From: Rubrivirga sp. SAORIC476
Lineage (GTDB): Bacteria; Bacteroidota; Rhodothermia; Rhodothermales; Rubricoccaceae
Direction of reading: 5' to 3'
Assembly: GCF_002283555.1 (NCBI RefSeq)
Contig: NZ_MVOI01000003.1
Span: 518,536-582,535, forward strand
Length of the DNA stretch: 64,000 bases
Below are positions 13,125 to 43,542 of this stretch, in pieces. Both the position numbers and the translations under genes were made by a program. Positions within the stretch are counted from its first letter, which is position 1. Every line of letters starts with the position of its first letter. The notes beneath the pieces were generated by a model. The model had not been told where the DNA came from. It searched no databases and saw nothing but the letters and a program-made list of their open reading frames with translations.

Positions 13125-13140
13125 TATCTGTTGCAACAAG
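13125..13140 (-). promoter_or_regulatory. Shared palindrome-centred element upstream of yceI
   Basis: Read on the minus strand this is CTTGTTGCAACAGATA, containing the perfect 10-bp palindrome TGTTGCAACA (13129-13138). The identical 16-mer occurs once more, in the same orientation to its gene, at 43527-43542 upstream of the old yellow enzyme. It is probably an operator or conserved promoter element for one regulator. Confidence 0.55.
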
Positions 13141-13199
13141 CAAAGTTCCCGGCCCGCCGTATCCCTCACAGGAACAGGACCTGCCGCGTCCCCCCGCCC

Positions 13200-13213
13200 C
13201 CTCGGCGCCGAGG
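13200..13213. repeat. CCTCGG/CCGAGG palindrome
   Basis: CCTCGG(CG)CCGAGG, 25 nt past the rlmD stop codon. One member of the family of GC palindromes found after many stop codons in this window. Confidence 0.45.
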
Positions 13214-13238
13214 GAGACCGGGCCGCACGCGCGCTCCG

Positions 13239-14711
13239 CTACGCCAGCCGCAGGCCGACCACGCTCTCGACGTGGTGCGTGTGCGGGAACATGTCGACCG
13301 GCTGGACCGCTTCGATGGTGTAGGCCGCGGCCTCCTGGAGCATGGCGAGGTCGCGCGCCTGCGTCTGTGGGTTGCAGGACACGTACACGATCCGCTCCGG
13401 ACGCAGGTGCGCGATCTGTCCGACCACCTTCGGGTGCATCCCGGCACGCGGCGGGTCCACGATCAACACGTCCGGGCGGCCGTGCTCGTCGATCAGTTCG
13501 GGCTTGAACAGCTCCAGCATGTCGCCCGCGACGAAGGTGCAGTTGTCTACCCCGTTCGCCTCGGCGCTCGCGCGGGCGTTCTCGACCGCCTCCTCCACCA
13601 GTTCCACCCCGACCACCTTCTCGACCGCGTCGGCCACGAACAGCGAGATCGTCCCGGCGCCGCAGTAGAGGTCGTAGACCACGTCGGTCGGCTGCAGGCT
13701 GGCGAAGTCCTTCGCGACCGCGTAGAGCGCCTCGGCCGCGACCGTGTTGGTCTGGAAGAAGGCGTTCGACGCGATCTCGAACGTGTGCGGCCCGATCCGG
13801 TCGCGCACGAGGCCCGGCCCGAAGATGGTGTGCACCGCCTCGCCGTAGGCCGTCTGCGCGACGCCCGAGTTGATCGTGTTGACGAGCGTGGTGACCTCGG
13901 GGAAGTCCGCCTTCAGGAAGTCCGCGAAGGCGGCCATGCGTTCCTCGTCGTAGTGCGACGTGACGAGGTTGACCATCTTGTCGTCCGTGTGCGCGGGCGT
14001 CCGCAGGCCGAGGATCTTGAGGTAGCCGGAGTGCTCGCGCGGGTGCAGCGGCGCCCAGTGGTGGCGCTTCGCGAACGCGCGGACGCCATTGACGAGCCGT
14101 GCGCTCCACTCGCTCTGGAGGTAGCACGCCTTCAGATCAAGCACCTTGTCGAACCGGCCGGGCACGTGCAGGCCGAGCGCGAAGTCCTTGTCGTGCGCCT
14201 CGCCCGAGGCGATCTCCCAGTCCGTCAGCCAGCGCATGGCGGAGAAGGAGAACTCCATCTTGTTGCGGTAGAAGTAGACCCCGCCCGAGCCGTCGTGATC
14301 GGCGGCTCCCATCGGCGGGCGCACGTCGGCGGCGCCCAGGTCCAGCCCGGCGCGCGTCAGCGCCGAGACGGCGGCCTCGCCCTTCATCGCCAGTTGGGCC
14401 GGGTACTGGACATGCTGCCACTTGCACCCGCCGCAGGCGTCGAAGTACTCGCAGCGCGGCTCGGTGCGGAGGTCGCTGCCCTCCAGCACCTCCAGCAGGC
14501 GCGCCTCCGCGAACCCCTTCTTCCGCTTGATGACGCGGGCGCGGACGCGGTCGCCGGGGACGGCCCCGGCCACGAACACGACGTAGCCGCGTCCGCCGTC
14601 CGGCCCCGCCACGCGGGCGAGGCTCTTGCCGCGGTCGGCGAAGGCCTCCAGCGTGAGCACGACCTCCCGGCCGCGCTTGAGATCGGACGGGATGAGGGGA
14701 GCGGTGGACAT
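13239..14711 (-). CDS. rlmD: 23S rRNA (uracil-C5)-methyltransferase, RlmD/TrmA family
   Basis: A 490-residue SAM-dependent methyltransferase with an N-terminal TRAM domain (about 10-75). A 4Fe-4S cluster site CEYFDACGGCKWQH (Cys87, 93, 96) pairs with a later Cys in LKACYL. The catalytic domain has YDLYCGAGTISLF (SAM binding), a DPPRAG motif and the nucleophile in YVSCNPQT. These features fit RlmD-type enzymes that methylate U1939 of 23S rRNA, though paralogues (RlmC, TrmA-like) share them. The ATG at 14711 places the TRAM domain at the N-terminus. It is divergent from the histidine kinase across 211 nt. Confidence 0.9.
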   Translation of the reverse strand: MSTAPLIPSDLKRGREVVLTLEAFADRGKSLARVAGPDGGRGYVVFVAGAVPGDRVRARVIKRKKGFAEARLLEVLEGSDLRTEPRCEYFDACGGCKWQHVQYPAQLAMKGEAAVSALTRAGLDLGAADVRPPMGAADHDGSGGVYFYRNKMEFSFSAMRWLTDWEIASGEAHDKDFALGLHVPGRFDKVLDLKACYLQSEWSARLVNGVRAFAKRHHWAPLHPREHSGYLKILGLRTPAHTDDKMVNLVTSHYDEERMAAFADFLKADFPEVTTLVNTINSGVAQTAYGEAVHTIFGPGLVRDRIGPHTFEIASNAFFQTNTVAAEALYAVAKDFASLQPTDVVYDLYCGAGTISLFVADAVEKVVGVELVEEAVENARASAEANGVDNCTFVAGDMLELFKPELIDEHGRPDVLIVDPPRAGMHPKVVGQIAHLRPERIVYVSCNPQTQARDLAMLQEAAAYTIEAVQPVDMFPHTHHVESVVGLRLA

Positions 14712-14922
14712 GGGCGCGGAGGAGGAACAACCTGCAAGATCCTGCCCGGCGAGGGCGCGGCGGGTGAGGAACGCGGGAGTCTGGTACGGCGACCGGCCGG
14801 GCGCGGCGTCCGGCACCGCCTCCGGTGTGGACCGGCGTTTGCCACACCGTCTGTGGGCTCACCCCATCCCCTCCGCGGGGCCGGACGGTTACCAAATCGC
14901 CCGGTCTGCTCCGAAACACCCC

Positions 14923-17358
14923 GTGCCGACCGACGCCTCCTCGCTCCCTCTCTGGATCTACCGTGTGCTGCTGTTCGTCGGCGGCGCGGCGCTGGTGGGC
15001 ATCGGCTGGGTGTACCAGTTCGGAGCGCCCGAGGCCGTCGACCCCCGCGCGGGGCGCCTGGCGATCGGCCTGTCGGCACTGTCGCTCGGCGTGCTGACGT
15101 TCACGAGCGCGACGGTCCGCCGCCGGGCCTACCTGCTCGTCTACGCCCTCTTCTTCGCGATCTCGGCGTGGCAGATCACGGTCGCCACCGCGAGCGGCCT
15201 CACGCCGACGGCGGCGTTCGGAATGCTGCTGGTGTTCCTAGGGTGCTCGGCGGGGATCCAGACGCCTCGTCTGCTGGCCGCCTACACTGTCGTGTTCGTC
15301 AGCGCGTCGGCCGTGGGCGTGTACTCGATCGGGAGGCCGGGCGTCCCACCGGGGGCCTTCCTGGCCACCCTCGGCACCCTCGGGGCGCTCGGGGTGTTCG
15401 TGTCCCGAGCGCGCCAGGAGTCAATCCAGACCCTCCAGGACGCCAAGGAGACGGCGCTGGCCGCCGCGCGCGCCAAGTCCGAGTTCCTGGCCGCGATGAG
15501 CCACGAGATCCGGACGCCCCTCAACGGCGTCATCGGCATGACCGACGTGCTGGCCACGACGGCGCTCTCGTCGGACCAGCGGGACTACGTCCACACCATC
15601 CAGGCCTCCGGGCGCGCCCTCCTCGGCGTCATCAACGACGTGCTCGACTTCTCGAAGATCGAGGCCGGGCGGTTAGACCTGGAGGCCGAGCCCGTCGCCC
15701 TCCGCGCCCTCGCCGACGACGCCGTGGCGGTGGTCGCACAGGCGGCCACCCAGAAGGGCGTCGAGGTGGTCTGCCACGTGGAGCCCGACGTCCCCGCGGT
15801 GGTCCTGGCCGACGGTGCCCGCCTCCGACAGGTCGTCCTCAACCTCCTCTCCAACGCGGTCAAGTTCACCGAGGCGGGCGGGGTCACCCTCCGGCTGGAC
15901 GCCCGCACCCGCCGCGGCCTCACCGACCTGACGATCCGCGTCTCAGACACCGGGATCGGCATCCCGGAGGCGTACCAGCCGTTGCTCTTCGAGTCGTTCA
16001 CCCAGGTCGACGCCTCCACCACGCGGCGGTTCGGGGGGACGGGGCTCGGGCTGGCCATCTCGAAGCGACTCGTCGAACAGATGGGAGGAGCGGTCCAGGT
16101 CGAGAGCGCCGTGGGCGCCGGCTCGGCGTTCACCGTGACCGTCCCGCTGCCCGAGGTCCAGGGGCCGCCCCCGCCCCCGGAGGTCTCGGCGGGGGTCCTG
16201 CTGCTGGTCGACCCGCACGCCGACGCCCGCGAGGCGGTCACCGCGCTCGGAGAGGAGTGCGGCTTCACGGTCTACCCCGTCGCCACCCCAGACGAGGCGC
16301 GGGCGTGGCTGGCCGACGGCGGCCGGTACGATCTCGCAGCCATCGCGCTGGCCGACGGCGCGGTCCGCCTCGCCGACGACCTCCGCGCCGACATCGCGCG
16401 CGGGGGGCGCCCCATCCTGCTGCTCGCCCCGCTCGGAAGCCACGTCGTCACGGCGGGCCTCTTCGACGCGGTGCTGACCAAGCCGGTCCGGTCGGATCGA
16501 TTCCGCGACGTGACGACCCGGCTGACCGGACTGGCCGAGGACGTACCCGAGGTGCGGGCGTCGCGGCCCGACACCGGCCCCGTCCGCGTGCTGCTGGTCG
16601 AGGACCACGAGGTCAACCGAAAGGTGGCGGTGGGCCTGCTCTCCCGCCTCGGCGTCGTCCCCGACGTGGCCGAAGACGGCCAGCAGGCCCTCGACGCGCT
16701 CGACCGCGCGACCTACGACCTCGTGCTGATGGACCTCCAGATGCCCGTGCTGGACGGCCTCGAAGCCACCCGGCGGCTCCGCGCCACGCTCCCCCCCGAG
16801 CGCCAGCCCGTCGTCGTCGCGCTGACAGCCAATGCCTTCGCCGAGGACCAGGCTCGCTGCCGCGAGGCAGGCATGGACGGCTTCCTCTCCAAGCCGGTCC
16901 GCCTCGACGATCTTCAGGAAGCCATCGACCAGGCCCGGCACGGGGAGGTTCGTGGCGGCGAGGACGCGCATCGTCCGGCGCCCTCCGCTCTCCCGGAGCC
17001 CGGCCCCGGCGCGCTCCGGCCCGACGCCCCCACACCGGAGGCCATCGCCGACCACCTCCGCGCCCTCGCCGATGGCGACGGCGCCCTCGCCGCGGAGATC
17101 CTGGACGCCTACCTGCGCACCGAGCCCACGCTCCGGGACGAGTTGGCCGGGGCGGACCCGGCCCCGGCGGCGCACAAACTGAAGGCCGCTTTCGGGACGC
17201 TCGGTGCAGACGCGCTCGCCCATGCGGCGTTCGAGATCGAGCGTCGCGGACGCGCGGGCGAGGACGTGACGGACGCACGCGATGCGCTCCTCGACGCCCT
17301 CGATCGGTTCCACGCGACGGCCGAGGCCGCCCTGGCGCTTCTCGCCGCTCCGGCGTAG
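14923..17358 (+). CDS. Hybrid histidine kinase with two receivers and HPt domain
   Basis: An 811-residue phosphorelay protein starting at GTG 14923. Residues 10-160 hold about six membrane segments with no large periplasmic loop. Next come HisKA (His194 in [11 protein letters not shown]) and HATPase (N-box [11 protein letters not shown] 307-317, [17 protein letters not shown]). A first receiver (about 424-530) lacks the phospho-acceptor Asp (Ala475 at that place) but keeps Lys520. A second, canonical receiver (about 554-670) has Asp604 and the KPV Lys. A C-terminal HPt carries His751 in [12 protein letters not shown]. Internal transfer His194 to Asp604 to His751 is likely. No cognate response regulator adjoins it. 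The start is chosen because it begins right before the first membrane helix. Confidence 0.9.
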
Positions 17359-17565
17359 CCGACCCGGCCTCAGGAGTCGCCGTCGGCCCTCTGTCGAGGC
17401 GGGATTGCGCCTGAGACGCACGTCTCACGATGGGATCGCGCGCCGAACACCTGGGCCCAGCGTCACGCCAGTCCGGACAAATCCGGCGACCGGAAGGTGT
17501 GTACCGGATGTGGGCACCGGTTTCTCAATGGGGGTGCTCGTTCCTCCGATACTCCCTCCGGACTG

Positions 17566-17811
17566 ATGCCCACCGCCTCCCTCTCCCCCATCGTGACTCC
17601 TGCCCGCTCCGTGTTCGTGCACCGTGGCTTCGAGCTCCGGCTCCGCGCTGCCGAGGACGCGTTCGCCTTCGAGATCGGACATCACGACCTGATGCTGCAC
17701 GCGTCCGACGCGGGCTATCGCACGCCACACGCCGCCGAGCGCGCCGGTCGCCGCTTCGTCGACGACGCCCTGGGGGCGTTCGATGTCGCCTCGGCACGTC
17801 TCGCCGCCTGA
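17566..17811 (+). CDS. Small hypothetical protein
   Basis: An 81-residue soluble protein with no signal peptide or membrane segment. It has a beta-rich first half and a C-terminal helix AAERAGRRFVDDALGAFDVA. I do not recognise the family. An in-frame ATG 23 codons upstream exists, but the intervening sequence looks non-coding. It is followed by a strong bidirectional terminator. Codon use matches neighbours. Confidence 0.55.
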   Translation: MPTASLSPIVTPARSVFVHRGFELRLRAAEDAFAFEIGHHDLMLHASDAGYRTPHAAERAGRRFVDDALGAFDVASARLAA

Positions 17812-17910
17812 TCTCGCCTTCGGGCAGTGCAGAGCGGTCATGGGAGACGACTGCGGCCCTGCACGCGAACAGAGGCGACGCGTCGGGCGCCAGCCCCTGT
17901 CGTCCAGACA

Positions 17911-17951
17911 GCGACGAGCCTCCGGTCCACCACGGACCGGAGGCTCGTCGC
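17911..17951. terminator. 18-bp perfect-stem bidirectional terminator
   Basis: The arms 17911-17928 and 17934-17951 are perfectly complementary over 18 bp around a five-base loop. It lies between the convergent 81-residue protein gene and the DUF2795 gene. A short T-rich run (CGTTTA) follows on the plus strand. Confidence 0.75.
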
Positions 17952-17976
17952 CGTTTAGCGAACCGGGAGACGACGA

Positions 17977-18195
17977 TCAGTCGTCCTCGAAGTAGAAGTC
18001 GTCGTTGTGGGTCGGGTAGTCCGGCCAGACTTCCTCGATGCTCTCGTAGGGGGCGCCGTCGTCCTCCATCTCTTCGAGGTTCTGGATGACCTCCGCGGGC
18101 GCGCCCGTCCGGTCGGCGTAGTCCACGAGTTCATCCTTGGTCGCCGGCCAGGGCGCGTCCTCCAGCGTCGCGGCCAGTTCGAGCGTCCAATACAT
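17977..18195 (-). CDS. DUF2795 small protein
   Basis: A 72-residue acidic protein of the DUF2795 type. TKDELVDYADRTGAPAEVIQNLEEMEDD is the conserved helix pair, and the PYESIEEVWPDYP stretch near the C-terminus is also characteristic. These abundant small cytoplasmic proteins have no established function; homologues are common in Bacteroidota relatives. The tail is DDFYFEDD. It stands alone between a terminator and a 285-nt gap. Confidence 0.85.
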   Translation of the reverse strand: MYWTLELAATLEDAPWPATKDELVDYADRTGAPAEVIQNLEEMEDDGAPYESIEEVWPDYPTHNDDFYFEDD

Positions 18196-18436
18196 ACGGA
18201 TCTAAGGGGTCAGGAGAGGGGAATACGTCGGCGGGGCACGATAGACCCGAGCCCGCGGAAATGCAACGGCGCAGGCTGGGAAGGTTCCTGCGGAACGTGC
18301 GAAGGCTGGCGCGCCCGCCTCGCGCATCGTCTGAACACTGGCGGTCGTCCGTCCTCGGAACGGAGGGGAGGCCGAGCGCTCCTGCTGGGCTGTGCCGCGC
18401 AGATGTGCGTCTCGGAGCGCCCTCCTCGATGCGAAA

Positions 18437-18457
18437 GCCGAGGCCGAGCCCCTCGGC
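18437..18457. repeat. CCGAGG/CCTCGG hairpin after the M23 peptidase gene
   Basis: GCCGAGG (18437-18443) pairs with CCTCGGC (18451-18457), 24 nt beyond the M23 stop codon. The arms match those of the other 3' palindromes, in inverse order. Confidence 0.45.
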
Positions 18458-18480
18458 CCGGCCCCGTCACTCGGACGACG

Positions 18481-19464
18481 CTAGTCGAACGAGATGGTCT
18501 GGGAGCGCGCCGCCTCGACGAGTTCGCGGTACTGGGCCGGCGTCACGTCCGGCACGAACGTCGAGACCGGGTTGATGGGCGTCCGCTCCTCGTTGAGCAG
18601 GCGGACCTCGTAGTGCAGGTGCGGCGCCGTCGAAAGGCCGGTGTTGCCACTGTAGGCGACGGTCTGGCCGCGGCGGACGAGCGAGCCCTCGCGGATGCCG
18701 TCGGCGGCACGCGAGAGGTGGGCGTAGCGCGTCACCTTGCCCGCGAGCGGGTGGTCGATCTCGATCACGTTGCCGTAGCCGCTCTTCGTGCCGACGAAGC
18801 TGACCCGGCCGTCGCCCGCCGCGTAGAGGGGCGTGCCGACGGGCGTCGGGAAGTCGACGCCGGCGTGCATGCGCGAGACGCGCAGGATGGGGTGGAAGCG
18901 CATCCCGAAGCCGGACGTGAGCCGCGCGCCCTTGAGGGGCAGGATGGCGGGCTGCTGGCGCAGGACGGCATCGCGCTGGCTGGCGAGCGTCCGGATCTCC
19001 TGGTAAGAGCGGCTCTGGAGCTGCAGCTGACGCTCCAGGCGGTCGAACGTCTCCGCGGTCTCCGTGAGCAGCTCGGCGGTGGGCGTCGAGAAGCGGGCGA
19101 AGCGCGAGTCCTCTGCGCCGCCGACGCCGAGCTGGAACTCGTCCTCCGAGATCGGCTCCGCGTTGAGGACGGTGCGGTAAATCTCGCGGTCGGTCTCGGC
19201 GAGGTCCTCCAGCTCATCCGAGAACGACGTCAACTGCGAGTGCGCCGAGGCGAGCTGGCCGCGCAGCGCGTCGATCTCCTCGGCCTGGGCGACCTCCGCG
19301 GGCGAGGTGGTCACGGTGGAGAGCACTCCGATGCCGACGGCGCTCAGCACGAGCGAGAGGCAGAGAATGGCGCCGGCCTTCAGCCACAACCCTTTCCGGC
19401 TGGGCTCGACCTCGACGAAGGTGCAGGCGTCGTGGTCGTAGTAGAAGAAGCGGTTGTCGGGCAT
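18481..19464 (-). CDS. M23-family membrane-anchored peptidoglycan endopeptidase
   Basis: A 327-residue protein with a short cytoplasmic N-terminus, one transmembrane helix (about 30-52) and a periplasmic coiled coil (about 58-170). The C-terminal LytM/M23 domain carries zinc ligands His200 and Asp204 (MHAGVDF) and HLH (282-284). The complete ligand set suggests an active D,D-endopeptidase rather than a degenerate activator. The start ATG 19464 is clear, since upstream sequence is a long hairpin. It probably acts in cell-wall elongation or division. Confidence 0.93.
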   Translation of the reverse strand: MPDNRFFYYDHDACTFVEVEPSRKGLWLKAGAILCLSLVLSAVGIGVLSTVTTSPAEVAQAEEIDALRGQLASAHSQLTSFSDELEDLAETDREIYRTVLNAEPISEDEFQLGVGGAEDSRFARFSTPTAELLTETAETFDRLERQLQLQSRSYQEIRTLASQRDAVLRQQPAILPLKGARLTSGFGMRFHPILRVSRMHAGVDFPTPVGTPLYAAGDGRVSFVGTKSGYGNVIEIDHPLAGKVTRYAHLSRAADGIREGSLVRRGQTVAYSGNTGLSTAPHLHYEVRLLNEERTPINPVSTFVPDVTPAQYRELVEAARSQTISFD

Positions 19465-19490
19465 GCGGACGAGTGGGAGGCGGTGGTGGC

Positions 19491-19533
19491 TCCCCAGTGC
19501 GGCCCCTCGCCGGGGGAGGGGCCGTACTGGGGA
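19491..19533 (-). promoter_or_regulatory. Very stable hairpin in the leader of the M23 gene
   Basis: The arms 19491-19508 and 19516-19533 pair over 18 positions (17 Watson-Crick, one G-U) with a seven-base loop. The stem begins 27 nt upstream of the M23 start codon. No T-tract follows on the minus strand, so it is more likely a leader structure, attenuator or processing site than a plain terminator. Confidence 0.55.
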
Positions 19534-20008
19534 GAGTGTGCGCGTCCGTGCACGCGCTTCCGAAACGCAACAACCGGGCCGAGACCCGGGGTGGAGCGCT
19601 CGGGCGGCCGGGGGAGGCCACTCCGGGTGGGGAAAGCGCTTCACAGCGGGGGCAAACATAGAGGGAGAGCCAGGCATTCCACAACTCCTCCCCCCGGGAT
19701 TCCCTTATCTCTCCATCATCCCCGGTGTCACGGGGTCAATTCGTAATACCCCGTCCGTCCTTGAATCGCTGGATGTTGGCGCCGCTCGCTCGCATGTGCG
19801 GCCGCTTCCCCGCTCGCCTCGACGACGGGCCGAGGGGGGACTCCATCCGTTCCCTCCACGCCCGATGATCAGGTTGAGAGCGCTCGGCGTGCGGTCGGCT
19901 GGGTGCGTCCCAGAACGTCGGCCGGATGCGAGCCTCGGCGGCGGTGTCTGCGCCTGAGCAGCGGCGGCGAGAAACGGAACGAGGGCGTACAGAGTGCCCC
20001 CCCCTGCC
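19534..20008. other. Non-coding gap with no recognised feature
   Basis: About 475 nt between the M23 leader hairpin and the 3' end of icmF. The open frames here are short, proline/arginine-rich and show no family resemblance. I see no tRNA, repeat or clear promoter, but the promoter of the M23 gene should lie within it. Confidence 0.4.
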
Positions 20009-20022
20009 CCTCGGGGCCGAGG
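20009..20022. repeat. CCTCGG/CCGAGG palindrome abutting the icmF stop
   Basis: CCTCGG(GG)CCGAGG ends at the base next to the icmF stop codon (20025-20023). It belongs to the family of 3' palindromes and could terminate icmF, although no T-tract follows. Confidence 0.45.
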
Positions 20023-23511: not shown

Positions 23512-23633
23512 CGGGGCGTCGGAAGGGCTTCCGAAAGGTAGGCGGGCGGGCGGTCCACTCCGGTGAACGCGCCGGGAATGGGGGCGTTCGGCCGTCCCTT
23601 CCGTCACCGCCGTTTCGTCCGCCCGGAGGCCCG

Positions 23634-32474: not shown

Positions 32475-32564
32475 CGGCGTATGGTCCAGACGGTGGATCG
32501 GCAGAGGCCGACAGGGTACGGACCGCGGTCGGACCCGGCCTTGACCTAGATCAACCGGCCCGAG

Positions 32565-33158: not shown

Positions 33159-33265
33159 CGGGCTCGTCTGGAGACACGAAGTGGGGAGGCCGCTGCCGAC
33201 GGAGTCGGAGGGCTTGCAAGATGCCGACGACCCGAGGAAGGATCCGCCCAGGTACCCCTCGGTTC

Positions 33266-33315
33266 CCTACCCCGGCGCTCCCCCGAGGCGGACTGTCACG
33301 GCGTGCGCGGCGCCG
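33266..33315 (-). repeat. ndvB 3'-end block duplicated at 30835-30884
   Basis: This contains the last codons and stop of ndvB and a CCGAGGC arm. 44 of 50 bases are shared with 30835-30884, about 2.4 kb away, in the same orientation. Confidence 0.6.
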
Positions 33316-36300
33316 TCGGACACGAGCGGGATGCGGGCGGTGCCGCCCTCGACCGGAGCGCCCACCCCATCTGCCTCGGCGGACGTGGCGCCTCCCGGAC
33401 CGTCGCGGACCACCTGGACCACGTAGACCGTGCCCCGGCTGTCGGTGCGGTAGCGGAGCGTGTACCCGTCCCAGTCGTCCGGCACGCGGGGCGTGAGGAC
33501 CAGCGCGTCCGCCTCACGGCGGAGGCCGAGGACCGACTCGACGGCCACGCGCCACATCCACCCGGCCGAGCCGGTGTACCACGTCCACCCGCCGCGCCCG
33601 ACGTGGGGCTCGACGGAGTACACGTCCGCCGCGACGGCGAACGGCTCGGTCTTGTAGCGATCGGCGGCGGCCTGCGAGCGGGTGTGGTTGACCGGCAGAA
33701 TCATCCGGAGCAGGTCCAGCGCGCGGCCCGGCCGGCCGCCCTCGGCGAACGCGCGGACGGCCCAGAGCACGCCGTGCGTGTACTGCCCGCCGTTCTCGCG
33801 GACGCCCGGCAGGTAGCCCTTGATGTAGCCCGGGTCGTGGTCGGTCACGTCGAACGGCGGGGTCAGCAGGCGGATCATCCCCGCGCGCTCGTCGACGAGG
33901 TACCGGTCGACGGCGTCGAGCACCTGGTCGGTGCGGTCGCCCGCGACGCCCGACAGGATCGACCAGCCCTGGGCGATGGCGTCGATGCGGCACTCGTCGT
34001 TCTGTGCCGAGCCGAGCGGCGTGCCATCGTCGTAGAACGCGCGGCGGTACCACGCGCCGTCCCACCCGTCGGCGTCGAGGGCGCGGACGAGATCGGCGCG
34101 GTAGGCCGTGTAGCGCTCGGCGCGCTGGCGGTCGCCGCGGGCCTCAGCGATGGGGATGAACCGCTCCAGGATGTGGGCCAGGAAGAAGCCCAGCCAGACC
34201 GACTCGCCCTCGCCCTCATTGCCGACCCGGTTCATGCCGTCGTTCCAGTCGCCGGAGCCCATCAGCGGGATGCCGTGGCGGCCGGCGGTGAGGGAGATGT
34301 CGAGGGCGCGAGCGGCGTGCTCGTACACCGAGCCCGTCTCGCCGGACGGTTGGGGTGTGAGAAACACCTCGTCTTCGCCCGGCTCCAGCGCGCGCGCGGT
34401 GAGGAACGGCGCCTCCTCGTCGAGGAGCGTCTCGTCGCCGGTGGACGCGAGCGTGAAGGCGACTGCGTAGGGCAGCCAGAGGAGGTCGTCCGAGAAGCGG
34501 GTCCGGATGCCCGCGCCGGTGATCGGGTGCCACCAGTGGAGCACGTCGCCCTCCTCGAACTGGTTGGCGGCGTTGATGAGGATCTGCGCCCGCGTGAGGT
34601 CGGGGCGGGTGTAGACGAGCGCGAGGCTGTCCTGGAGCTGGTCGCGGAAGCCATAGGCGCCCCCGCTCTGGTAGAACGCCGAGCGGCCCCATAGGCGGCA
34701 CGACAGGTTCTGGTAGAGCAGCCAGCCGTTGACGAGCACGTCGAGGTCTGGCGCGGGGGTCTCGATCTGGACGGCGCCGAGGGTCTCCTCCCAGAACGCG
34801 GTCACGTCGGCGAGCGCGAGGTCAGCCGCCTCGGGCGTCGCGTAGCGGGTGACGAGCGTCCGCACGTCGGCGACGGTCTTGGCCTGCCCGAGCAGGAAGA
34901 CGACCTCGCGGGTCTCGCCGGGCGCCAGCGCCAGCGGCACGCGGACGGCGGCGCACGGGTCGAGGTCGGTGTCGAGAGAGCCGTCCAGCGGTCCGCCCGC
35001 GACCACCGAGGCGGGTGCACTCGCGTGGCCGTTGCGCCCGAGGAAGGCGCCCCGCCGCGCGGTCACCGAGTCCACCTCGGCGCCGGCCACGGCGACGAAC
35101 GCCAGCCGGTTGCCGAACGTCTGGTTGTACGGGTTGTGCGCCAGGAGCGCGCCCGAGTCGCGGTCGCGCTCCACGATCACGTACGGCGCGTTGGGCTCGC
35201 GCCGCTCGCCCAGCACGAGTTCGGCGTAGCGATACAGCGACAGGCTCCGCTCGACCTCGGTCCGGTTGGTGATCCGCAGGCGGACCAGCTTGACGGGGTC
35301 GCGGCGCGGCACGAAGGCCGTCGTCTCGGTCTCCAGGCCGCCCCAGGCGGTCGTCCACGACGTGAAGCCCCAGCCGTGGCGCGTCTCGATGGGCGCGGGG
35401 GCGGGGGCCGGGCGCGGCGTGGGCGTCCAGAACACGTCCGCGTCGTCGTCGCGGAGGTAGAGCGCCTCGCCCGCCGGGTCGGTGACGGGGTCGTTGGACC
35501 AGGGCGTGAGCTTGTTCTGCTGCGAGTTGCGAGCCCACGTGTAGCCCTCCCCACTCTCGGTGGCGGTGAAGCCGACCGCCGGGTTGGCGACCACGTTGAT
35601 CCATGGCAGCGGCGTCCGCGTCGTCGCCTCGCCGCCGGTCTGGCGGACGATGTAGCTGCGGCCGTCCTCCGAGAACCCGCCGTAGCCGTTCTCGAACTGG
35701 AGCGACTCCGGTGCCGGCGTGACCGCGGCCGATGGAAAGCGTGCCGCGGCCATGCGCTCGTCGGCGGCCGGGTGGGTCGCTGGAACCGCATCGGAGAGCA
35801 GTTGGGCGGCGCGGTCGTCCTGCTCCACTTCGTGGGCCTCGGCCACCGCGTCCCCCTCCCCGACCGTCGCGGAGGTCAGCAGCGAGGGCACCTCGCCGTG
35901 GAAGACGGCACGCGCGGCGGTGAGCAGCAGCGTCACGTCCTCCTCCGGCATCCCGTCGGAGCGGCGCAGGAAGACGCCGCCGCGCTGGCCAATGAGTCCG
36001 CGCAGCGGCGAGCCCTCGACGGCCTGCGTGAGCGCTTCCTGCAGCGAGTCGGCGTAGCTCGGCGGATGGTCGTTCAGGATCACGACGTCGACCTCTAGGC
36101 CGCGGCGGCGCCAGAAGGCGTGCATTCGCAACAGCCCGCGGACGGCGTCCAGTTCCTCCATCTTCGAGAGGCGGAACAGCAGGATCGGGAGGTCGCCCGA
36201 GATGCCGTACGCCCACAGGCCCGACTGGGGGCGCGTGTTGCGGTCGCGGACACTCGCGGGCGCGGCCACGCGCGGGTCGCCGTAGAGCAGGCGGCTCGCG

Positions 36301-39300
36301 ATCTCCTGCGCCGCGAGCGCCTCCTCGCCCGTCATGCCGAGGTGGCTCAGCTCGACCAGCCCGTAGGTGGACGCCAGTTCGAAGGCGCGCTGTGCGGCGT
36401 CCGGGTGGTCGTAGCGCTCGGCCAGCCGCTCGGCCTCCTCGCGGGAGTCGGCCACGGCGAGCGAGAACACGACCTGCACGCTCTCCTTCGGGCGCAACTC
36501 CACGACGCGACGGAGCGAGACGATGGGGTCCAGGACAGCCCCGGCGGTGCGCGAGAGGCGAGCGCCGGGGTCGAGCGCCGCGGGCGCGTCGAGCGTCCGC
36601 CCCCGGCCGACGAAGCGCATCCGGTCGGTCTCGTACTGGAGCTGCGTGCGGGGGGAGCGGACGGCCCGTGCCAGGCCCTTGTCGGCCACGGCATGGACGA
36701 GCCATCGGCGCACGTCGTCTTCCGCGCGCGGCCGGCGCGTCGCCAGGAGCGCGTTGTTCTTGGAGAGGTACTCGGTCTCGACGAACAGCTTCGAGAAGGC
36801 CGGGTGGCCGAGGTCCGCCGCGGCCGACTGGAGGACGACCTCGGCGTAGCTCGTCAGCTCGATGGTGCGCGGACGGTCGGCGTAGTTGGTCAGCGTCACG
36901 CGGCGGACCTCGACGTTGTCCTCCGGCGACACGACCGTCTCGGTGAACGTCTCGATCCAGTCGTCCACGCGGGCCGTCTCGACCTTGTTGAGGTGGACCC
37001 ACACGTCGTAGCGGTCCGGCGGCTGCGCCGAGGTGACCGGCTGCTCGGCGCTCGACCAGACGCGCCCGGACTCCACGTCGCGGACGTAGATGAACAGGCC
37101 GTCGGCGTCGCGGGTGCGGTCGCCATGCCAGCGGGTCAGCGCGACGCCGTCGAGGCGGGAGTAGCCGGTGCCGGAGGTCGTGAGCAGCGTCGAGTACCGG
37201 CCGTTGGAGAGGAGCGCGCCGTGCGGCATCACGTCGGCGGTGCTGTCGCGGCCGAAATGCTCCACGCGCGCCTCGACCGGCGTGATCTCGACCGCGTCCA
37301 CCTCGGCGTCGTCGAGCGGGTGCGGGTCGATCTTCTCGACCACCGTCGGCACGCGCTCCTGGAGCAGGATCTCGACCGAGCGGACGAGCGGGTCGCGGTG
37401 GAAGCGCGCCTGGAAGCGCCCGCCGTCCAGCACGTGGGCCAGCGCGAGCAGCCCCATCCCCTGGTGGTGGGCCATGTACGAGTTGACGAGCGAGAACGAC
37501 GCCCCCTCCTCCGCAGCCGCCACCCGCCCCGGCGTGTAGTCGATGGCCTCCATGTAGCCGAAGCGCCCGAAGGCGCCCGTCGCGTCCAGCTTCGTCAGGT
37601 TGGACAGGGCGCGCTCGGGGCGGATCAGCAGCGCGAGCAGCGTCGAGTACGGCGACACCACGTAGTCCTCCCCCAGCCCGCGCTTCAGGCCCAGGTAGGG
37701 CACGCCGAAGGCGCGGTACTGGTACGTCAGGTGGAGGTTGAGGAGCGAGTAGCCGCTCTCCGAGATGCCCCACGGGCGGTCCTTCGCGCGCCCGTAGATG
37801 CGCTGCAGCGAGACCGCGTTGTAGCACGCGTCGTAGAGCAGCGTCCGGTCGTAGAGGCGCGTGTAGAGGACCGGCATGAGGTACTCGAACATGGTCCCGC
37901 TCCACGAGAGGAGCGCCCGGCGAGCCCGCGTGACGCGCGTCGGGCGCGAGAGGTGGAACCAGTGCTCGGGCGGCACCTCGCCCTTGGCGATGGCGAGCAG
38001 CGAGGTCAGCCGCGCCTCGGACGCGAGCAGGTCGTAGGTGAACGGGTCCTGCCGCGCCATGCCCGCGTCGTAGCCGATGCGAAAGAGGTCGCGCTCGGGG
38101 TCATAGAGCGGCCGGAAGTCCATGTCGCGCACCAGCTGGTCGGCGCGTGCGGCGAGGCCAGCAGCGTGGTCGATGAGCCATCCGACGGTGGCCTGGGCCT
38201 CGGCGAGCGCCGCCCGCGCTTCGGCGCCGAGGTCGTCGTCCAGCGCCGTCGCCAGCCGGCCGGCGAGGGCGCCGAGCGAGGTGCACGCGTCCAGGTCGGC
38301 GGCGACACCGGGCGTCAGCGCGACGCCGTCGCGTAGCCACGGGGCGACCGCCTCCACCTCGGCGACGTAGAGCGCCGCCTGGGCCACGAACTCGGCCGCC
38401 GGGTCTCGCACCGCCTGCGGCTCCTCGGCGACGGCGTCGGCGAGCGCCTGCCCGGCGGCGAGCAGGCGGGTGACGCGGGCGTGCCACGCCGCGATGCCGC
38501 GGGGCGCCCGCTCGGACAGGACCTGGGCGACCGTGTCGCGGGCGTCGCGCGCCGGGCCGGTCGCGAACTCGGGCACCTCGGCGAGCGTGTCGCGGAACCC
38601 ATCCAGCACCCGCAGTCCAGGCCACGGCGCGTCGGCGGTTTCGAGAAGCCCCTGCTTGAGCGTCACCAGCGCCCCCGCGAGGTTACCGGAGTCGACCGTG
38701 GACACGTAGCGCGGCGCCATCACGGCGCCCGTCTCGGTGCTGTACCAGTTGTAGAGGTGCCCCTGGTAGCGCTCCAGGCTCTCGACCGAGTCCAGCATCG
38801 TGCCGAGGCGGACCAGCTCGTCGCCGCGCGGGATGTAGCCGAGGTCGCGCGCCGCCTGGACGGCGTTGAGCGCCAGGCCGATGTTGGTCGGCGACGTGCG
38901 GCGGGCGAGGCCCTGCGCGGGCTGCACCTGGAGGTTGTCCGGCGGCAGCCAGCGGTCGCGTTCGGTGAGGATGGTGTCGAAGAAGCGCCACGTCCGCCGG
39001 GCGACCGTCCGCAGGCGGATGCGGTCGTTCGTCGTCAGCGTGTACTCGTCCCGGTCGATGTCGCGGCTGACGTACCGCGCCACCCAGGGCGCCGCGATCC
39101 AGGCCGCCGCGAAGGGCAGCGCGGTGAACCACGCGATGGGCTCGGTGAGCGTCACCGACGCCAGCACGACCGCGCCCCACGCCACCGACGCCCACATCGA
39201 GTGCGGCACGTCTCGGGTCGACTCCTCGGCCTGCTGGGCGGTCGTCCACTCCAAGAGGTTCTTCTTCGACACCGCCGTCCGCCAGAGCGTCCGCCCGATG

Positions 39301-42002
39301 GCATCCAGCATGACCACCGACTGGTGGGCCAGGAAGACGACCGACAGGCCGATCTGGCGGGCGTGCATCTGGACGTCCGCCCAGACCACGCGGAGCCAGC
39401 TCGACGTGACCGTGTCGGGCGGCTGAAACAGGAAGCCGTGCGCGGCGGGCGCGTAGATCGGGAACGCGAGCACGAACAGCGCAATCAGCGTCCACACGAA
39501 CGGCGAGCCGGGCAGGACCGTCCACGCGAGCAGCAGGAAGACGAGCAGCGCGGGCGGCGTCAGGCTCCGGCGGAGGTTGTCGAACAGCTTCCAGCGGCCG
39601 ACGACCGAGAGCGGGTTCTTCCGCTTCGTGCCCGCGGCGTCGCGGACGCGCGGCATCAGCCACGGCAGCAGCTGCCAGTCGCCGCGCACCCAGCGGTGCT
39701 GGCGGAGCGCGAACGAGGCGTAGCGCGACGGAAAGTCGTCGAACACTTCCACACCGGTCGCGAGCGCCGCGCGGGCGTGGTTGCCTTCCAGGAGGTCGTG
39801 CGAGAGCACCGTGTTCTCGGGCAGCGCCCCGTCCAGCGTGTGGCGGAACGCGTCCACGTCGTAGAGCCCCTTGCCGGTGTAGATGCCCTCGCCGAAAAGG
39901 TCCATGTACGCGTCCGACACGGCCGTCGTGTACGGGTCGACGCCCGGCCGGCCGGCGTAGATGCGGGCGAAGAGCGTCGTGCGGCCGCTCTCGGGCGAGA
40001 TCGAGACGCGCGGCTGGAGGACGCCGTAGCCGCGGGTCACCCGGCCCCGGTCGGCCGAGTAGCGGGGTCGGTTGAGCGGGTGCGCGGCCGTCGCCACGAG
40101 CGCCCGCGCACCGTCGGGCGTCGTCCGCGTGTCGGCGTCGAGGGTCAGGACGTAGCGGATGGCATCGCCCTCGGTGGCGGCCCGGAGGTCGCCCTCGATG
40201 TCCGTGTAGCTGGTCTGCGCGTCGGGGTCGCGGAGGAGTTCGTTGAACTCCTCCAGCTTGCCGCGCTTGCGCTCCCAGCCCATCCAGACGCCCTGGGCTT
40301 CGTTCCACAGGCGCTCGCGGTGGAGCAGGAAGAAGCGGTCGCCGCCGGGCGCTCCGTCCCCCTGCGCCCGGGCGGCGCGAGATCGTTCGTTGAGCGTACG
40401 GATGGCCTGGCGCGCGGCGTCGAGCGTGGCCTCGTCGCCGGGCACCTCCTTCGCCTCGGCGTCGGCCCAGTCGGTCAGGAGCGCGTAGCGCAGCGCGGCG
40501 TCGGGGTTGGCGAGCGCGTGGACCTCCAGCCGCTCGACCATCTCCCGGCTGTGCGCGGGCGACGTGATGAGCGTCGGCACGACGACGAACGTCTGGTGCT
40601 CGGCGGGCACGCCGTCCTCGAAGGCGAGGCGAGGCAGCTGGCGCGGCGGCAGGAAGCGGACCACGTTCCAGTTGACGAACGTGACGGCGAAGTCGAGCAG
40701 CGGCAGAAATGCCGCCGCGACGGTCAGCGCGAGCCAGTTGGCGGTCGCCCCGCCCGCGTCGGCCACGAGGACGGCCGCGAGCAGCCCGAGGCCGGTGACC
40801 GCGGCGATGCTGCCCAGGTACACGGCGGTCGGGTGCCGCTCGGCAGTCCAGTAGAGGCGGCGCGACAGCTTCGGCCGGTACCCCGCCGCCTTGCCGAGCG
40901 TGCGGACGCCCGGCCCGAGGAGCCAGTAGCCGACGTGGTCGGCCGCAGCGTCGGCGTCGTCCTGGGTGGCCGCCTGACGGGCCAGCGCCAGCGCGCGCTC
41001 GGCGACGCCGAACTCGGTCTCGGGCGAGCGTCGCGCGATCCGCTCGGTCACGTGTCGGTACGCGTCGCGCGTCCCCTCGCTCATCGCGGCGTACACCCCT
41101 GCGGGGTCCTCCCGGAGGGTGTGCTCGACCGCCGAGAGGTCCTCGACGATGTCCACCCAGTCGGTGTCGGCGGCTGCGCGGAGGGCGAGGACTGCGTTGG
41201 CGATGGAGCCGCGCCACTGCGTCTCGCGCTGCGTCTCGATGCGCTCGACATCGTCCAGGGTGAGGCGACGCGCCCGGAGGCGGTGCTCCAGCCACTCCAT
41301 CGCCGTGCCCCGGCCGCCGGCCGCCGGGAGGGCCGCCGCGAAGGTCATCGCGAACGGACCGGAGAGGGGCGCCTGCTCGCGCGCGATGGCCGCCAGGTCG
41401 GCGCTGACCTCGGCCGGGTCGTCGTGGGCGGCCAGCGTCTCCGCCCAGGTTGCGGCGGACAGCCGGTCGGCCCGCGCCTCGCGGAGGGGACGCGCGAGCG
41501 CGGCCACACGCTGCGCGAGCACGACCCGCAGGAGGAGCGGCAGCGCCCACAGCTCGGCCAGCGTCAGCAACTCGACCTCCTGGTACCCGGCCACGAACCC
41601 ACGCAGGTGCTCGACGCTGAGGTCGTTGTCGGTCAGGTCGGCCAGGTTCTCGACCAGCTCGTAGGCGCGTGGCAGACCCTGGTAGGGCCCCGCGGTGAGC
41701 TTCGGGAGGACGCGGTAGTAGGCGCGCGGCATCGCTGCCTCGGCCTCCCGCGCCTGGTCGCGGACGATGTGGTAGTTGTCGAGGAGCCACTCGGCGGCGG
41801 GCGTCAGCGTCTCGCCGGCCCGGCCCGCCTCGGCGAGGTCACGGTAGGCCGCCGTCAGGTCGCCCAGCGCGTCGCGGACCAGCGGACGCAGCGGGCGCCC
41901 CCGCGACGGCTCCGTCTCGACGGCCTGGGTCCGGGCGAGTCGGCGAGCGTGCTCCGCGAGGTGGGTCGGCTTGAAGAGGCTCTCGACGGACGATCCGGGC
42001 AC
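33267..42002 (-). CDS. ndvB: Cyclic beta-1,2-glucan synthase (NdvB/ChvB family)
   Basis: A 2911-residue inner-membrane enzyme, full-length for the family; GTG start, with an N-terminal LFKPTHLAEHARRLA block like that of homologues. Order: helical N-terminus with membrane helices near 400-450; GT84 glycosyltransferase (about 480-830; DxD-type LDADTRT near 617, RQHRWVRGDW near 770); more helices to about 1010; a glucoamylase-like/GH144-like segment (about 1060-1560; YNWYSTE near 1086); and two GT36/GH94 phosphorylase-like halves with the catalytic-site GSGDWNDGMN near 2586. It initiates, elongates, sizes and cyclises beta-1,2-glucan from UDP-glucose in rhizobia. The product in this organism is inferred; a stand-alone GH144-like enzyme sits directly upstream. 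Confidence 0.94.
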   Translation of the reverse strand: MPGSSVESLFKPTHLAEHARRLARTQAVETEPSRGRPLRPLVRDALGDLTAAYRDLAEAGRAGETLTPAAEWLLDNYHIVRDQAREAEAAMPRAYYRVLPKLTAGPYQGLPRAYELVENLADLTDNDLSVEHLRGFVAGYQEVELLTLAELWALPLLLRVVLAQRVAALARPLREARADRLSAATWAETLAAHDDPAEVSADLAAIAREQAPLSGPFAMTFAAALPAAGGRGTAMEWLEHRLRARRLTLDDVERIETQRETQWRGSIANAVLALRAAADTDWVDIVEDLSAVEHTLREDPAGVYAAMSEGTRDAYRHVTERIARRSPETEFGVAERALALARQAATQDDADAAADHVGYWLLGPGVRTLGKAAGYRPKLSRRLYWTAERHPTAVYLGSIAAVTGLGLLAAVLVADAGGATANWLALTVAAAFLPLLDFAVTFVNWNVVRFLPPRQLPRLAFEDGVPAEHQTFVVVPTLITSPAHSREMVERLEVHALANPDAALRYALLTDWADAEAKEVPGDEATLDAARQAIRTLNERSRAARAQGDGAPGGDRFFLLHRERLWNEAQGVWMGWERKRGKLEEFNELLRDPDAQTSYTDIEGDLRAATEGDAIRYVLTLDADTRTTPDGARALVATAAHPLNRPRYSADRGRVTRGYGVLQPRVSISPESGRTTLFARIYAGRPGVDPYTTAVSDAYMDLFGEGIYTGKGLYDVDAFRHTLDGALPENTVLSHDLLEGNHARAALATGVEVFDDFPSRYASFALRQHRWVRGDWQLLPWLMPRVRDAAGTKRKNPLSVVGRWKLFDNLRRSLTPPALLVFLLLAWTVLPGSPFVWTLIALFVLAFPIYAPAAHGFLFQPPDTVTSSWLRVVWADVQMHARQIGLSVVFLAHQSVVMLDAIGRTLWRTAVSKKNLLEWTTAQQAEESTRDVPHSMWASVAWGAVVLASVTLTEPIAWFTALPFAAAWIAAPWVARYVSRDIDRDEYTLTTNDRIRLRTVARRTWRFFDTILTERDRWLPPDNLQVQPAQGLARRTSPTNIGLALNAVQAARDLGYIPRGDELVRLGTMLDSVESLERYQGHLYNWYSTETGAVMAPRYVSTVDSGNLAGALVTLKQGLLETADAPWPGLRVLDGFRDTLAEVPEFATGPARDARDTVAQVLSERAPRGIAAWHARVTRLLAAGQALADAVAEEPQAVRDPAAEFVAQAALYVAEVEAVAPWLRDGVALTPGVAADLDACTSLGALAGRLATALDDDLGAEARAALAEAQATVGWLIDHAAGLAARADQLVRDMDFRPLYDPERDLFRIGYDAGMARQDPFTYDLLASEARLTSLLAIAKGEVPPEHWFHLSRPTRVTRARRALLSWSGTMFEYLMPVLYTRLYDRTLLYDACYNAVSLQRIYGRAKDRPWGISESGYSLLNLHLTYQYRAFGVPYLGLKRGLGEDYVVSPYSTLLALLIRPERALSNLTKLDATGAFGRFGYMEAIDYTPGRVAAAEEGASFSLVNSYMAHHQGMGLLALAHVLDGGRFQARFHRDPLVRSVEILLQERVPTVVEKIDPHPLDDAEVDAVEITPVEARVEHFGRDSTADVMPHGALLSNGRYSTLLTTSGTGYSRLDGVALTRWHGDRTRDADGLFIYVRDVESGRVWSSAEQPVTSAQPPDRYDVWVHLNKVETARVDDWIETFTETVVSPEDNVEVRRVTLTNYADRPRTIELTSYAEVVLQSAAADLGHPAFSKLFVETEYLSKNNALLATRRPRAEDDVRRWLVHAVADKGLARAVRSPRTQLQYETDRMRFVGRGRTLDAPAALDPGARLSRTAGAVLDPIVSLRRVVELRPKESVQVVFSLAVADSREEAERLAERYDHPDAAQRAFELASTYGLVELSHLGMTGEEALAAQEIASRLLYGDPRVAAPASVRDRNTRPQSGLWAYGISGDLPILLFRLSKMEELDAVRGLLRMHAFWRRRGLEVDVVILNDHPPSYADSLQEALTQAVEGSPLRGLIGQRGGVFLRRSDGMPEEDVTLLLTAARAVFHGEVPSLLTSATVGEGDAVAEAHEVEQDDRAAQLLSDAVPATHPAADERMAAARFPSAAVTPAPESLQFENGYGGFSEDGRSYIVRQTGGEATTRTPLPWINVVANPAVGFTATESGEGYTWARNSQQNKLTPWSNDPVTDPAGEALYLRDDDADVFWTPTPRPAPAPAPIETRHGWGFTSWTTAWGGLETETTAFVPRRDPVKLVRLRITNRTEVERSLSLYRYAELVLGERREPNAPYVIVERDRDSGALLAHNPYNQTFGNRLAFVAVAGAEVDSVTARRGAFLGRNGHASAPASVVAGGPLDGSLDTDLDPCAAVRVPLALAPGETREVVFLLGQAKTVADVRTLVTRYATPEAADLALADVTAFWEETLGAVQIETPAPDLDVLVNGWLLYQNLSCRLWGRSAFYQSGGAYGFRDQLQDSLALVYTRPDLTRAQILINAANQFEEGDVLHWWHPITGAGIRTRFSDDLLWLPYAVAFTLASTGDETLLDEEAPFLTARALEPGEDEVFLTPQPSGETGSVYEHAARALDISLTAGRHGIPLMGSGDWNDGMNRVGNEGEGESVWLGFFLAHILERFIPIAEARGDRQRAERYTAYRADLVRALDADGWDGAWYRRAFYDDGTPLGSAQNDECRIDAIAQGWSILSGVAGDRTDQVLDAVDRYLVDERAGMIRLLTPPFDVTDHDPGYIKGYLPGVRENGGQYTHGVLWAVRAFAEGGRPGRALDLLRMILPVNHTRSQAAADRYKTEPFAVAADVYSVEPHVGRGGWTWYTGSAGWMWRVAVESVLGLRREADALVLTPRVPDDWDGYTLRYRTDSRGTVYVVQVVRDGPGGATSAEADGVGAPVEGGTARIPLVSDGAAHAVTVRLGGAPG

Positions 42003-42129
42003 GGGGCGTGGAGGTGGGAGGCTCCCTCAACGCCGGGCATCGCCGCGCGGTCCCGAAGCACGCGCACCGGAGCCCAGGTGGGGAGAACCGCCAGGGGCAG
42101 GGCAGCGGCGGAGCACGGCGCTGCTCGCC

Positions 42130-43443
42130 TCACTCCAGCCAGCCCCCCTCGAAGCCGCATCGGCGGAGACCGTCCACCAGCGGAGCGCACGTCCGCATGA
42201 GGTCCCAGATCTGGCCCGAGCGGTGGTTCTCGATGGCGAGCACGATGGGACCCTGGTTGAGCGCGTAGTGATGATCCGACACCCACCCGAGGTCCTCGTC
42301 GCCATTCGGGAAGGAGGGGTTGTAGGACGCCTCGAAGCCGAACCGGTCCTCACGGCTGGCGTGCGACACGGCGAGGCCCGCGAGGCACTCCAGCACGGCG
42401 TCGGGGGCGAACGGCAGGCTGGCGAGAGCGGCCCAGGGCGCCAGCGTCCCGTCGTCCGGACCGAACGGGACGCCGCGGGCGCGGTAGCCCCAGAACCGCT
42501 GCGTCTCCCTATCGAGGGTGCGGACGGCCGGACCGGGGCCGTCGCTCGCCGTGAGGCCCCACGCGGTCGGGCCGTAGCCCACGAAGCCGCGCGGGTTGCG
42601 GACGGCGTACTCGCGCTGGATGAGCGTCGCCCGACGGCTGTTCTCGAAGTAGTCCGTCGGCGCCCCGAGGCGGGCGGACTGGGCGCGCATCGCGGCGTCC
42701 TGGATGCCCCGAAAGTCGATCCACAGGTGCGAGAACTGGTGGATGAACAGCGGCCCGGCGTACAGCACGTCGTGACCGTAGATCCGCTTCCACTTGTAGG
42801 TGCGCGTCGTCGCCTCGAAGGCGGACGCCGGGATCGGGTGCGTCGGCGAGCCGACTGCGAGGGCGTACAGGATCAGCGCCTCCGTGTAGCCTTCCCAGCG
42901 GTAGCGGAGGAAGCCGCGCTCGGGGGTCCACCCCATCGTGACCGTCTCTCCTTCGTCCATCGCCCACTCCCAGTCGACGGCGTGGTAGAGGGCGTCGGCG
43001 CCGTCGCGGATCTCCGCCTCGTGTGCGTCGTCGGGGTCGTCGAAGAAGGCGGCGGCGCAGAGGAGGCCCGCGACCAGGAGCGCCGTGTCGATGGTCGAGA
43101 GCTCGCTCGTCCAGGCGCGGCGGCCATCCACCATGTCGAGGAAGTGGTAGAAGAAGCCCCGGTGCCCGACGCCGTCTTTCGCGCCGTCCTGGGGCGCGTC
43201 GCGGAAGAAGCGGACCGCAGCAAGCGCGATCTCGCGGGCGGCCTCGCGGGACACCCATCCTCGCGACACGGCGATGGGCAGCGCCGAGAGGCCGAAGCCG
43301 ACCGCCGCGATCGACGCGGGGCTGTCGGGCATGGTGCTGTCCACGACGAGCCCGTTCGCCCAGTTCGTCTTGCGCGCGAAGTAGGCGAACGAGGCGCGGT
43401 GGACGGCGTCGAGCAGGTCGTCGGAGGCGGTGGGGTCGGGCAT
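42130..43443 (-). CDS. GH144-like glucoamylase-family protein, probable endo-beta-1,2-glucanase
   Basis: A 437-residue (alpha/alpha)6-type protein of the glycoamylase-like family (PF10091/GH144). Conserved stretches include FRDAPQDG, HRGFFYHFLDMVDGRR, ELSTIDTALLVAGLL, WKRIYGHDVLYAGPLFIHQFSHLWIDFRG and the C-terminal LGWVSDHHYALNQGPIVLAIENHRSG. GH144 enzymes cut beta-1,2-glucan. There is no signal peptide from the ATG at 43443, so it appears cytoplasmic. It is transcribed just ahead of ndvB (127-nt gap), consistent with processing or turnover of the glucan made there. It is divergent from the old yellow enzyme. Confidence 0.88.
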   Translation of the reverse strand: MPDPTASDDLLDAVHRASFAYFARKTNWANGLVVDSTMPDSPASIAAVGFGLSALPIAVSRGWVSREAAREIALAAVRFFRDAPQDGAKDGVGHRGFFYHFLDMVDGRRAWTSELSTIDTALLVAGLLCAAAFFDDPDDAHEAEIRDGADALYHAVDWEWAMDEGETVTMGWTPERGFLRYRWEGYTEALILYALAVGSPTHPIPASAFEATTRTYKWKRIYGHDVLYAGPLFIHQFSHLWIDFRGIQDAAMRAQSARLGAPTDYFENSRRATLIQREYAVRNPRGFVGYGPTAWGLTASDGPGPAVRTLDRETQRFWGYRARGVPFGPDDGTLAPWAALASLPFAPDAVLECLAGLAVSHASREDRFGFEASYNPSFPNGDEDLGWVSDHHYALNQGPIVLAIENHRSGQIWDLMRTCAPLVDGLRRCGFEGGWLE

Positions 43444-43526
43444 GGCCGGAGACGGTCGGCGCGGAGGAACGGCGCGCTGCGCGACGGGGTCCGCGGGTCC
43501 GGAACCAGGGTGGCGGCATCGCGTTA

Positions 43527-43542
43527 CTTGTTGCAACAGATA
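43527..43542 (+). promoter_or_regulatory. Shared palindrome-centred element upstream of the old yellow enzyme
   Basis: CTTGTTGCAACAGATA with the perfect palindrome TGTTGCAACA at 43529-43538, ending 10 nt before the start codon. The identical 16-mer, in the same orientation to its gene, lies upstream of yceI (13125-13140). So close to the ATG it could act as operator. Confidence 0.55.

Follow-up and report, generated by a model that had tools for sequence, protein, structure and literature searches.

A predicted MarR-type operator before yceI and an old yellow enzyme gene in Rubrivirga sp. SAORIC476

The 64,000-nucleotide stretch of the Rubrivirga sp. SAORIC476 genome analysed here (the window) contains the same 16-bp sequence, CTTGTTGCAACAGATA, before two separate genes, one encoding a YceI-family lipocalin (yceI) and the other an old yellow enzyme (OYE). 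Is this repeat a binding site, and if so, which regulator reads it? A preliminary description of the sequence had suggested that one regulator, of the MarR, TetR or HxlR type, controls both genes. Our analysis makes it probable that the repeat belongs to the operator of a repressor of the MarR family whose own gene lies outside the window; this repressor would govern a quinone/electrophile detoxification regulon, MhqR-like in its working. Control of both genes by one regulator is, at the level of sequence, well supported by the conservation of the motif and by its co-occurrence with a MarR gene.

The repeated palindrome and its copies in the genome

The 16-mer is located at positions 13125-13140 (minus strand) and 43527-43542 (plus strand) of the window. 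As first described, each copy lies upstream of its gene and points at it. The distance is 63 bp to the yceI ATG and 10 bp to the OYE ATG, and Pfam verified the identities of both products (PF04264 and PF00724, respectively). No third match was found in the window even with up to three mismatches. The whole-genome count (4,480,430 bases, 19 contigs, 97.5% complete) is two, both inside the window, and the control word read backwards gave none; the 16-mer is not spread through coding sequence. In 100 dinucleotide shuffles of the window the mean was 0.01 match, and two matches occurred in 0 of 100.

The element thus holds as an exact repeat, whereas its length had to be revised: the true unit is an 18-bp (9+9) palindrome, TAYTTGTTNNAACAARTA. 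Its central two bases differ among relatives, so that the arms, and not the exact 16-mer, are what matters. The core TGTTGCAACA occurs at five places genome-wide, and TGTTNNAACA, in which the centre is left free, at nine, compared with one for the control. By reading of the open reading frames (ORFs), all five core copies lie in promoters or intergenic regions, at yceI, OYE, a nitroreductase-family gene, an MFS transporter gene and a kinase gene. The nitroreductase-family gene (PF00881) starts 45 bp after the core, and its product scores 267 bits against the malonic semialdehyde reductase model (cut-off, 152).

We scored the sites with an 18-bp matrix that has a maximum of 33.9 and whose training set included the OYE, yceI and nitroreductase sites of this genome. 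These are the three top-scoring sites of the genome, with 30.5, 27.1 and 27.1, respectively; in the window the OYE site ranks first and the yceI site second, and the next-best position reaches 3.9. The copy at the start of the MFS transporter gene (PF07690) scores 13.6. There (L018 6981-6998, G000:C6) the first codon of the ORF is a TTG that belongs to the palindrome. It is the sole usual start codon seen ahead of the conserved part, so the operator may overlap the translation start. A weaker copy, scoring 17.2, is flanked by a receptor-like ORF and a gene for a sensor histidine kinase (PF06580; L016 6221-6238, G000:C3), a possible link of the regulon to signalling. Four places of this genome that match TGTTNNAACA with other centres score below 2, three of them in ORFs and one (L242) in no called ORF, and are treated as chance.

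Conservation of the site in related genomes

In 40 relatives, YTTGTTGCAACAR gave 41 matches, compared with 11 for the control. Some of the matches lie inside genes, seven of them in DNA polymerase III delta-type genes (L022, L024, L025, L026, L040, L043 and L044; one gene verified by Pfam), where the word encodes LLQQ in one frame, and in-gene matches were excluded from the regulon argument. Other matches are upstream of yceI, OYE, nitroreductase, glyoxalase-fold dioxygenase and aldo/keto-reductase genes. Near-matches with different central bases turned up as well, which points to the arms as the constant part. The strict pattern TAYYTGTTNNAACARRTA was found at 17 places in 15 of the 114 genomes of the order, and its reversed control at none. 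Targets were assigned to fourteen of these places: yceI in six cases, DoxX in three (where an HxlR gene is divergently oriented), and in single cases WrbA, OYE, a nitroreductase, a SnoaL-like protein and a glyoxalase-fold dioxygenase paired with an esterase. Three places have no assigned target: G037:C8, G059:C210, which is 13 bases away from the end of a contig, and G014:C238, which was outside the set of loci read.

YceI matches were obtained in 50 of 60 relatives, and the scan covered the 30 loci returned, matches without a locus being left aside. Scores of at least 12 occurred at 20 of 9,000 positions within 300 bp upstream of these genes and at 2 of 97,116 positions elsewhere. Some yceI sites had gone into the first matrix, and a second one was therefore made from 11 sites that precede other genes; at a score of at least 10, this held-out matrix identified a site in 19 of the 30 YceI upstream windows, in 3 of 306 other windows taken from these loci and in 10 of 600 shuffled windows. 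Among 15 OYE orthologues (at least 55% identity), the site is kept before the gene or its operon in eight and is found in none of the other seven. Direct-upstream sites scoring at least 12 number 7 of 15 (a degenerate one in G002 scores 12.6); in G004 the site is followed by an AhpC/TSA gene and then by OYE. Orthologous promoters, to which the preliminary description had pointed as a check, therefore keep the site in many cases, not in all (19/30 for YceI, 8/15 for OYE).

A chance match, or a coincidence of codons reading LLQQ in one frame, would account for the seven in-gene matches of the relatives and for the three of four other-centre places of this genome that fall in ORFs. The shuffle and reversed controls and the strong enrichment upstream of YceI refute codon coincidence for both window sites, and we regard this explanation as having next to no probability.

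A candidate MarR regulator and its rivals

The likely regulator of the motif-bearing genes, as judged from genome comparison, is a MarR protein encoded at C3:2060759. It matches PF01047 with 35.8 bits (cut-off, 24.6) and PF12802 with 35.4 (cut-off, 27); its top PDB sequence match is 3u2r, regulatory protein MarR (E 5.2e-27), and its best NCBIfam model is HpaR, with 57 bits, below the cut-off of 121. An orthologue (E < 1e-40) is present in 36 of the 114 order genomes: in all 15 that carry the strict motif and in 21 of the 99 others, with a Fisher p of 2.7e-9. For the co-occurrence of MarR and motif in the 40 relatives, p is 0.0027. The gene is unevenly distributed: in each of families f5 and f13 it occurs in 4 of 27 genomes, and the one genome of the family that has the motif belongs to those four. 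The yceI site is found in 17 of 21 loci from genomes with a MarR orthologue and in 2 of 9 from genomes without one, and the OYE site before seven of nine orthologues and one of six, respectively.

MarR genes adjoin yceI in G005, G012, G019, G029 and G038 and adjoin OYE in G039; those of G005 and G012 are of another group. Two congeners carry TGTTGGAACA at -56 of the MarR gene. In families f9 and f4 more distant relatives of the protein come with variant palindromes, such as TATGTGTTGAAACACATA in the MarR-yceI pair of G038 (L176), where it is located at the 5' end of the longest ORF for MarR.

The MarR alignment was also used to scan named genomes of several phyla, and the best 80 of 586 loci were evaluated. 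A YceI ORF lies within 3 kb of the MarR subfamily gene in 30 of these 80, and in 25 of the 30 at no more than 200 bp. After removal of five Rhodothermales or near-Rhodothermales loci, 20 of the remaining 75 have TANTYGTTNNAACRANTA (up to two mismatches) in the 160 bp that precede the MarR gene, whereas permuted half-site palindromes give 0.58 on average and 4 at most; counted by position, the matches are 20 in 11,961 upstream positions and 24 in 422,059 others. We tentatively propose, at somewhat less than even probability, that one very widespread and apparently unnamed MarR subfamily (Bacteroidota, Rhodothermales, Acidobacteriota, Planctomycetota and Gemmatimonadota) is dedicated to the regulation of YceI along with a varying set of quinone/electrophile enzymes, and that it reads variants of TANTYGTTNNAACRANTA. 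If so, YceI, a quinone-binding lipocalin of debated role, would belong to the core of bacterial defence against reactive quinones and electrophiles. As the MarR-yceI pairing recurs across several phyla, a single binding study could help to annotate many genomes.

In genomes of the class outside the order, the strict motif occurs at 28 places in 16 of 130 genomes, and reversed-control hits in three genomes. One returned locus was read per motif genome. Seven of the 16 have a matching target: an esterase directly behind the motif (L333-L336), YceI (L342), a SnoaL-like protein (L337) and a subfamily MarR gene 69 bp downstream (L343). No matching target was seen in the other nine loci read (L328-L332 and L338-L341), and the five family f16 loci look like chance. 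The SnoaL-like ORFs of L124 (G003) and L337 (family f17), from distant lineages, are 45% identical and both stand behind a strict motif; the protein is a possible further regulon member.

Several points weigh against assigning the operator to this MarR protein. Its gene is distant from the window genes, and the site in its own promoter is weak (TGTCGGAACA, score 2.8, 54 bp upstream); own-promoter scores of at least 5 were found for 7 of 30 order orthologues, a proportion for which no background was computed. Four of the 21 yceI loci from orthologue-bearing genomes have no site, and G039 and G019 possess the orthologue and yet no site before OYE. The E < 1e-40 limit was chosen afterwards, at a gap in the list from 2.2e-42 to 2.0e-32, and TANTYGTTNNAACRANTA was widened at one position after some loci had been seen. 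The Fisher tests ignore shared ancestry, with several loci coming from one genus, and several of the YceI loci likewise share one genus and are not independent. Finally, another regulator may share some of the sites, given the site between HxlR and DoxX in Rhodothermus-like genomes.

This last site had suggested that the operator belongs to a thiol-switch regulator of the HxlR (DUF24) family, akin to YodB and QsrR. A near or exact motif stands between the HxlR gene and DoxX in L084, L086, L087 and L121, and YodB, CatR and QsrR are known quinone sensors that control quinone reductases, nitroreductases and dioxygenases (available part of PMC6798810). Over the 40 relatives, however, HxlR is present in 10 of 12 motif genomes and 16 of 28 others (p 0.16), or, with strong matches alone, in 8 of 12 and 14 of 28 (p 0.49). 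G034 and G037 carry the strict motif without any HxlR match, and one HxlR was found in this genome, in a 3.3-kb locus that lacks the site. HxlR was dropped as the general regulator because its presence does not track the motif, and we consider it quite improbable in that role. From the earlier list of MarR, TetR and HxlR types, of which MarR and HxlR were compared, MarR fits, whereas HxlR shows no significant co-occurrence.

In the four Rhodothermus-like loci the palindrome is flanked by the divergent HxlR gene and DoxX, and an NmrA-like ORF follows in L084 and L086. This arrangement suggests that two quinone-type regulators meet at the HxlR/DoxX promoter.

A second alternative assigns the operator to another MarR group or to another family, such as TetR, that merely co-occurs with the C3:2060759 protein. 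MarR-domain proteins are present in 40 of 40 relatives, and this genome alone has nine PF01047 matches; a TetR-type regulator, MgxR, governs a yceI-containing operon in Burkholderia (available part of PMC4349456). The adjacency of a different MarR group to yceI in G005 and G012 speaks for it as well, but the loci concerned are without the motif, and this group was rejected as the regulator. The C3:2060759 group, by contrast, has the matching presence pattern and the cross-phylum yceI adjacency, and in other lineages its own promoter carries this palindrome. We judge the alternative unlikely.

In both of these loci (L185 in G005, L189 in G012) the different MarR gene directly precedes yceI, and in L185 an esterase gene (PF02230) is next. 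Because they are without the motif, the MarR genes found next to yceI must be of two kinds or more. We take the group of L185 and L189 to be MhqR-like.

The predicted switch and its gene set

Binding by the C3:2060759 MarR, repression rather than activation, and the kind of signal are what we infer from the sequence comparisons. A MarR dimer would sit on the 9+9 bp palindrome over the promoter or transcription start and keep off yceI, OYE with its peroxidase neighbour, the nitroreductase, perhaps the MFS transporter and, more weakly, its own gene. A quinone, an electrophile or a similar reactive compound would inactivate the repressor, and the reductases and the YceI lipocalin would then be produced together. 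With 10 bp between the OYE site and the start codon, the operator probably overlaps the transcription start or the leader. Repression is the likely mode in view of this position and of the S. aureus MhqR palindrome, which is located at -6 to +12 (available part of PMC6798810). The proposed signal follows from the target types, which comprise ene-reductase, nitroreductase, WrbA quinone reductase, dioxygenase, esterase, peroxidase, aldo/keto reductase, pirin, YceI and DoxX; the pirin gene follows yceI in G006. All 30 order orthologues share one cysteine of the MarR protein (residue 64-65 in the alignment), which only 36 of 80 wider relatives have; thiol sensing is thus possible for this lineage but not a general property.

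Regulons of MarR proteins with operators and targets of this kind have been described before. MhqR of Bacillus subtilis and Staphylococcus aureus is a MarR-type repressor with a 9-9 bp inverted-repeat operator, and its targets include ring-cleavage dioxygenases, a phospholipase/carboxylesterase and nitro- and quinone reductases; MarR dimers bind operator palindromes of 16-20 bp (available part of PMC6798810), a range into which the 18-bp palindrome falls. The comparison covers the layout of the operator and the kinds of target. All four MhqR-type target kinds are found downstream of the motif in relatives, and in this genome the nitroreductase and OYE alone were seen. The dioxygenase and esterase of L114 presumably resemble MhqO and MhqD. 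Unlike the MhqR set, the one described here adds YceI, OYE, DoxX, SnoaL-like and aldo/keto-reductase genes, and unlike YodB, CatR and QsrR, the candidate regulator belongs to the MarR and not the HxlR family.

In Escherichia coli, the TetR-family regulator NemR controls the OYE gene nemA. The system predicted here resembles NemR-nemA in the electrophile-responsive control of an N-ethylmaleimide-reductase-type OYE. For YceI, a parallel in regulation is MgxR of Burkholderia xenovorans (Bxe_B3018), which represses a yceI-containing operon and is inactivated by methylglyoxal, an electrophile; as far as the available part of PMC4349456 goes, it differs in its family (TetR), its operator sequence and its target, a putative efflux operon. 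Ubiquinone-8 is bound in most solved structures of YceI lipocalins, and BcnA/LcoA of Burkholderia cenocepacia, a YceI lipocalin with a cytochrome b561, likewise act in defence against reactive compounds; the available part of PMC9113575, on which both statements rest, mentions no MarR regulator or operator for them. Neither a MarR-YceI nor a MarR-OYE-YceI regulon turned up in the open-access literature, searched mostly at title and abstract level and with most subscription journals outside it, and the titles among the matches listed for the motif itself were unrelated. The reconstruction would connect YceI lipocalins, which are widespread, with ene-reductases, nitroreductases and quinone reductases, and for a stress response of a lineage that has been little studied it names a regulator, an operator and a set of genes that can be tested.

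Table 1. Predicted operators, window genes, candidate regulator and target genes in relatives
Feature	Position	Strand	Remarks
Palindromic operator (predicted) TGCTTGTTGCAACAGATA, 18 bp	13125..13142	-	Exact match; upstream of yceI ATG (13061)
Palindromic operator (predicted) TACTTGTTGCAACAGATA, 18 bp	43525..43542	+	Exact match; upstream of OYE ATG (43553)
yceI, YceI-family lipocalin, 229 aa	12372..13061	-	PF04264, E 4.7e-50
OYE, N-ethylmaleimide-reductase-like, 371 aa	43553..44668	+	PF00724, E 1.3e-75
AhpC/TSA-type thiol peroxidase	44717..45394	+	PF00578, E 2.9e-34
Putative glucoamylase gene	42130-43443	-	PF10091; divergent from OYE
2,911-aa ORF, by eye like cyclic beta-glucan synthase	33267-42002	-	Beyond the glucoamylase gene
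MarR protein, 154 aa	C3:2060759-2061220		Candidate regulator
Glyoxalase-fold + Abhydrolase_2	L114		Downstream of motif
WrbA	L122		Downstream of motif
Nitroreductase	L017, L051		Downstream of motif

The window genes are listed in Table 1. By reading, the YceI protein has a probable lipoprotein signal. The top NCBIfam model of the OYE is N-ethylmaleimide reductase, with 352 bits, under the cut-off of 403. OYE and the peroxidase gene are probably co-transcribed, as they share a strand and are separated by a 48-bp gap. The intergenic region between the glucoamylase gene and OYE contains the operator, and the same gene pair is present in G003 (L060), where a counterpart of the 2,911-aa ORF (1-4563) is found at the same place.

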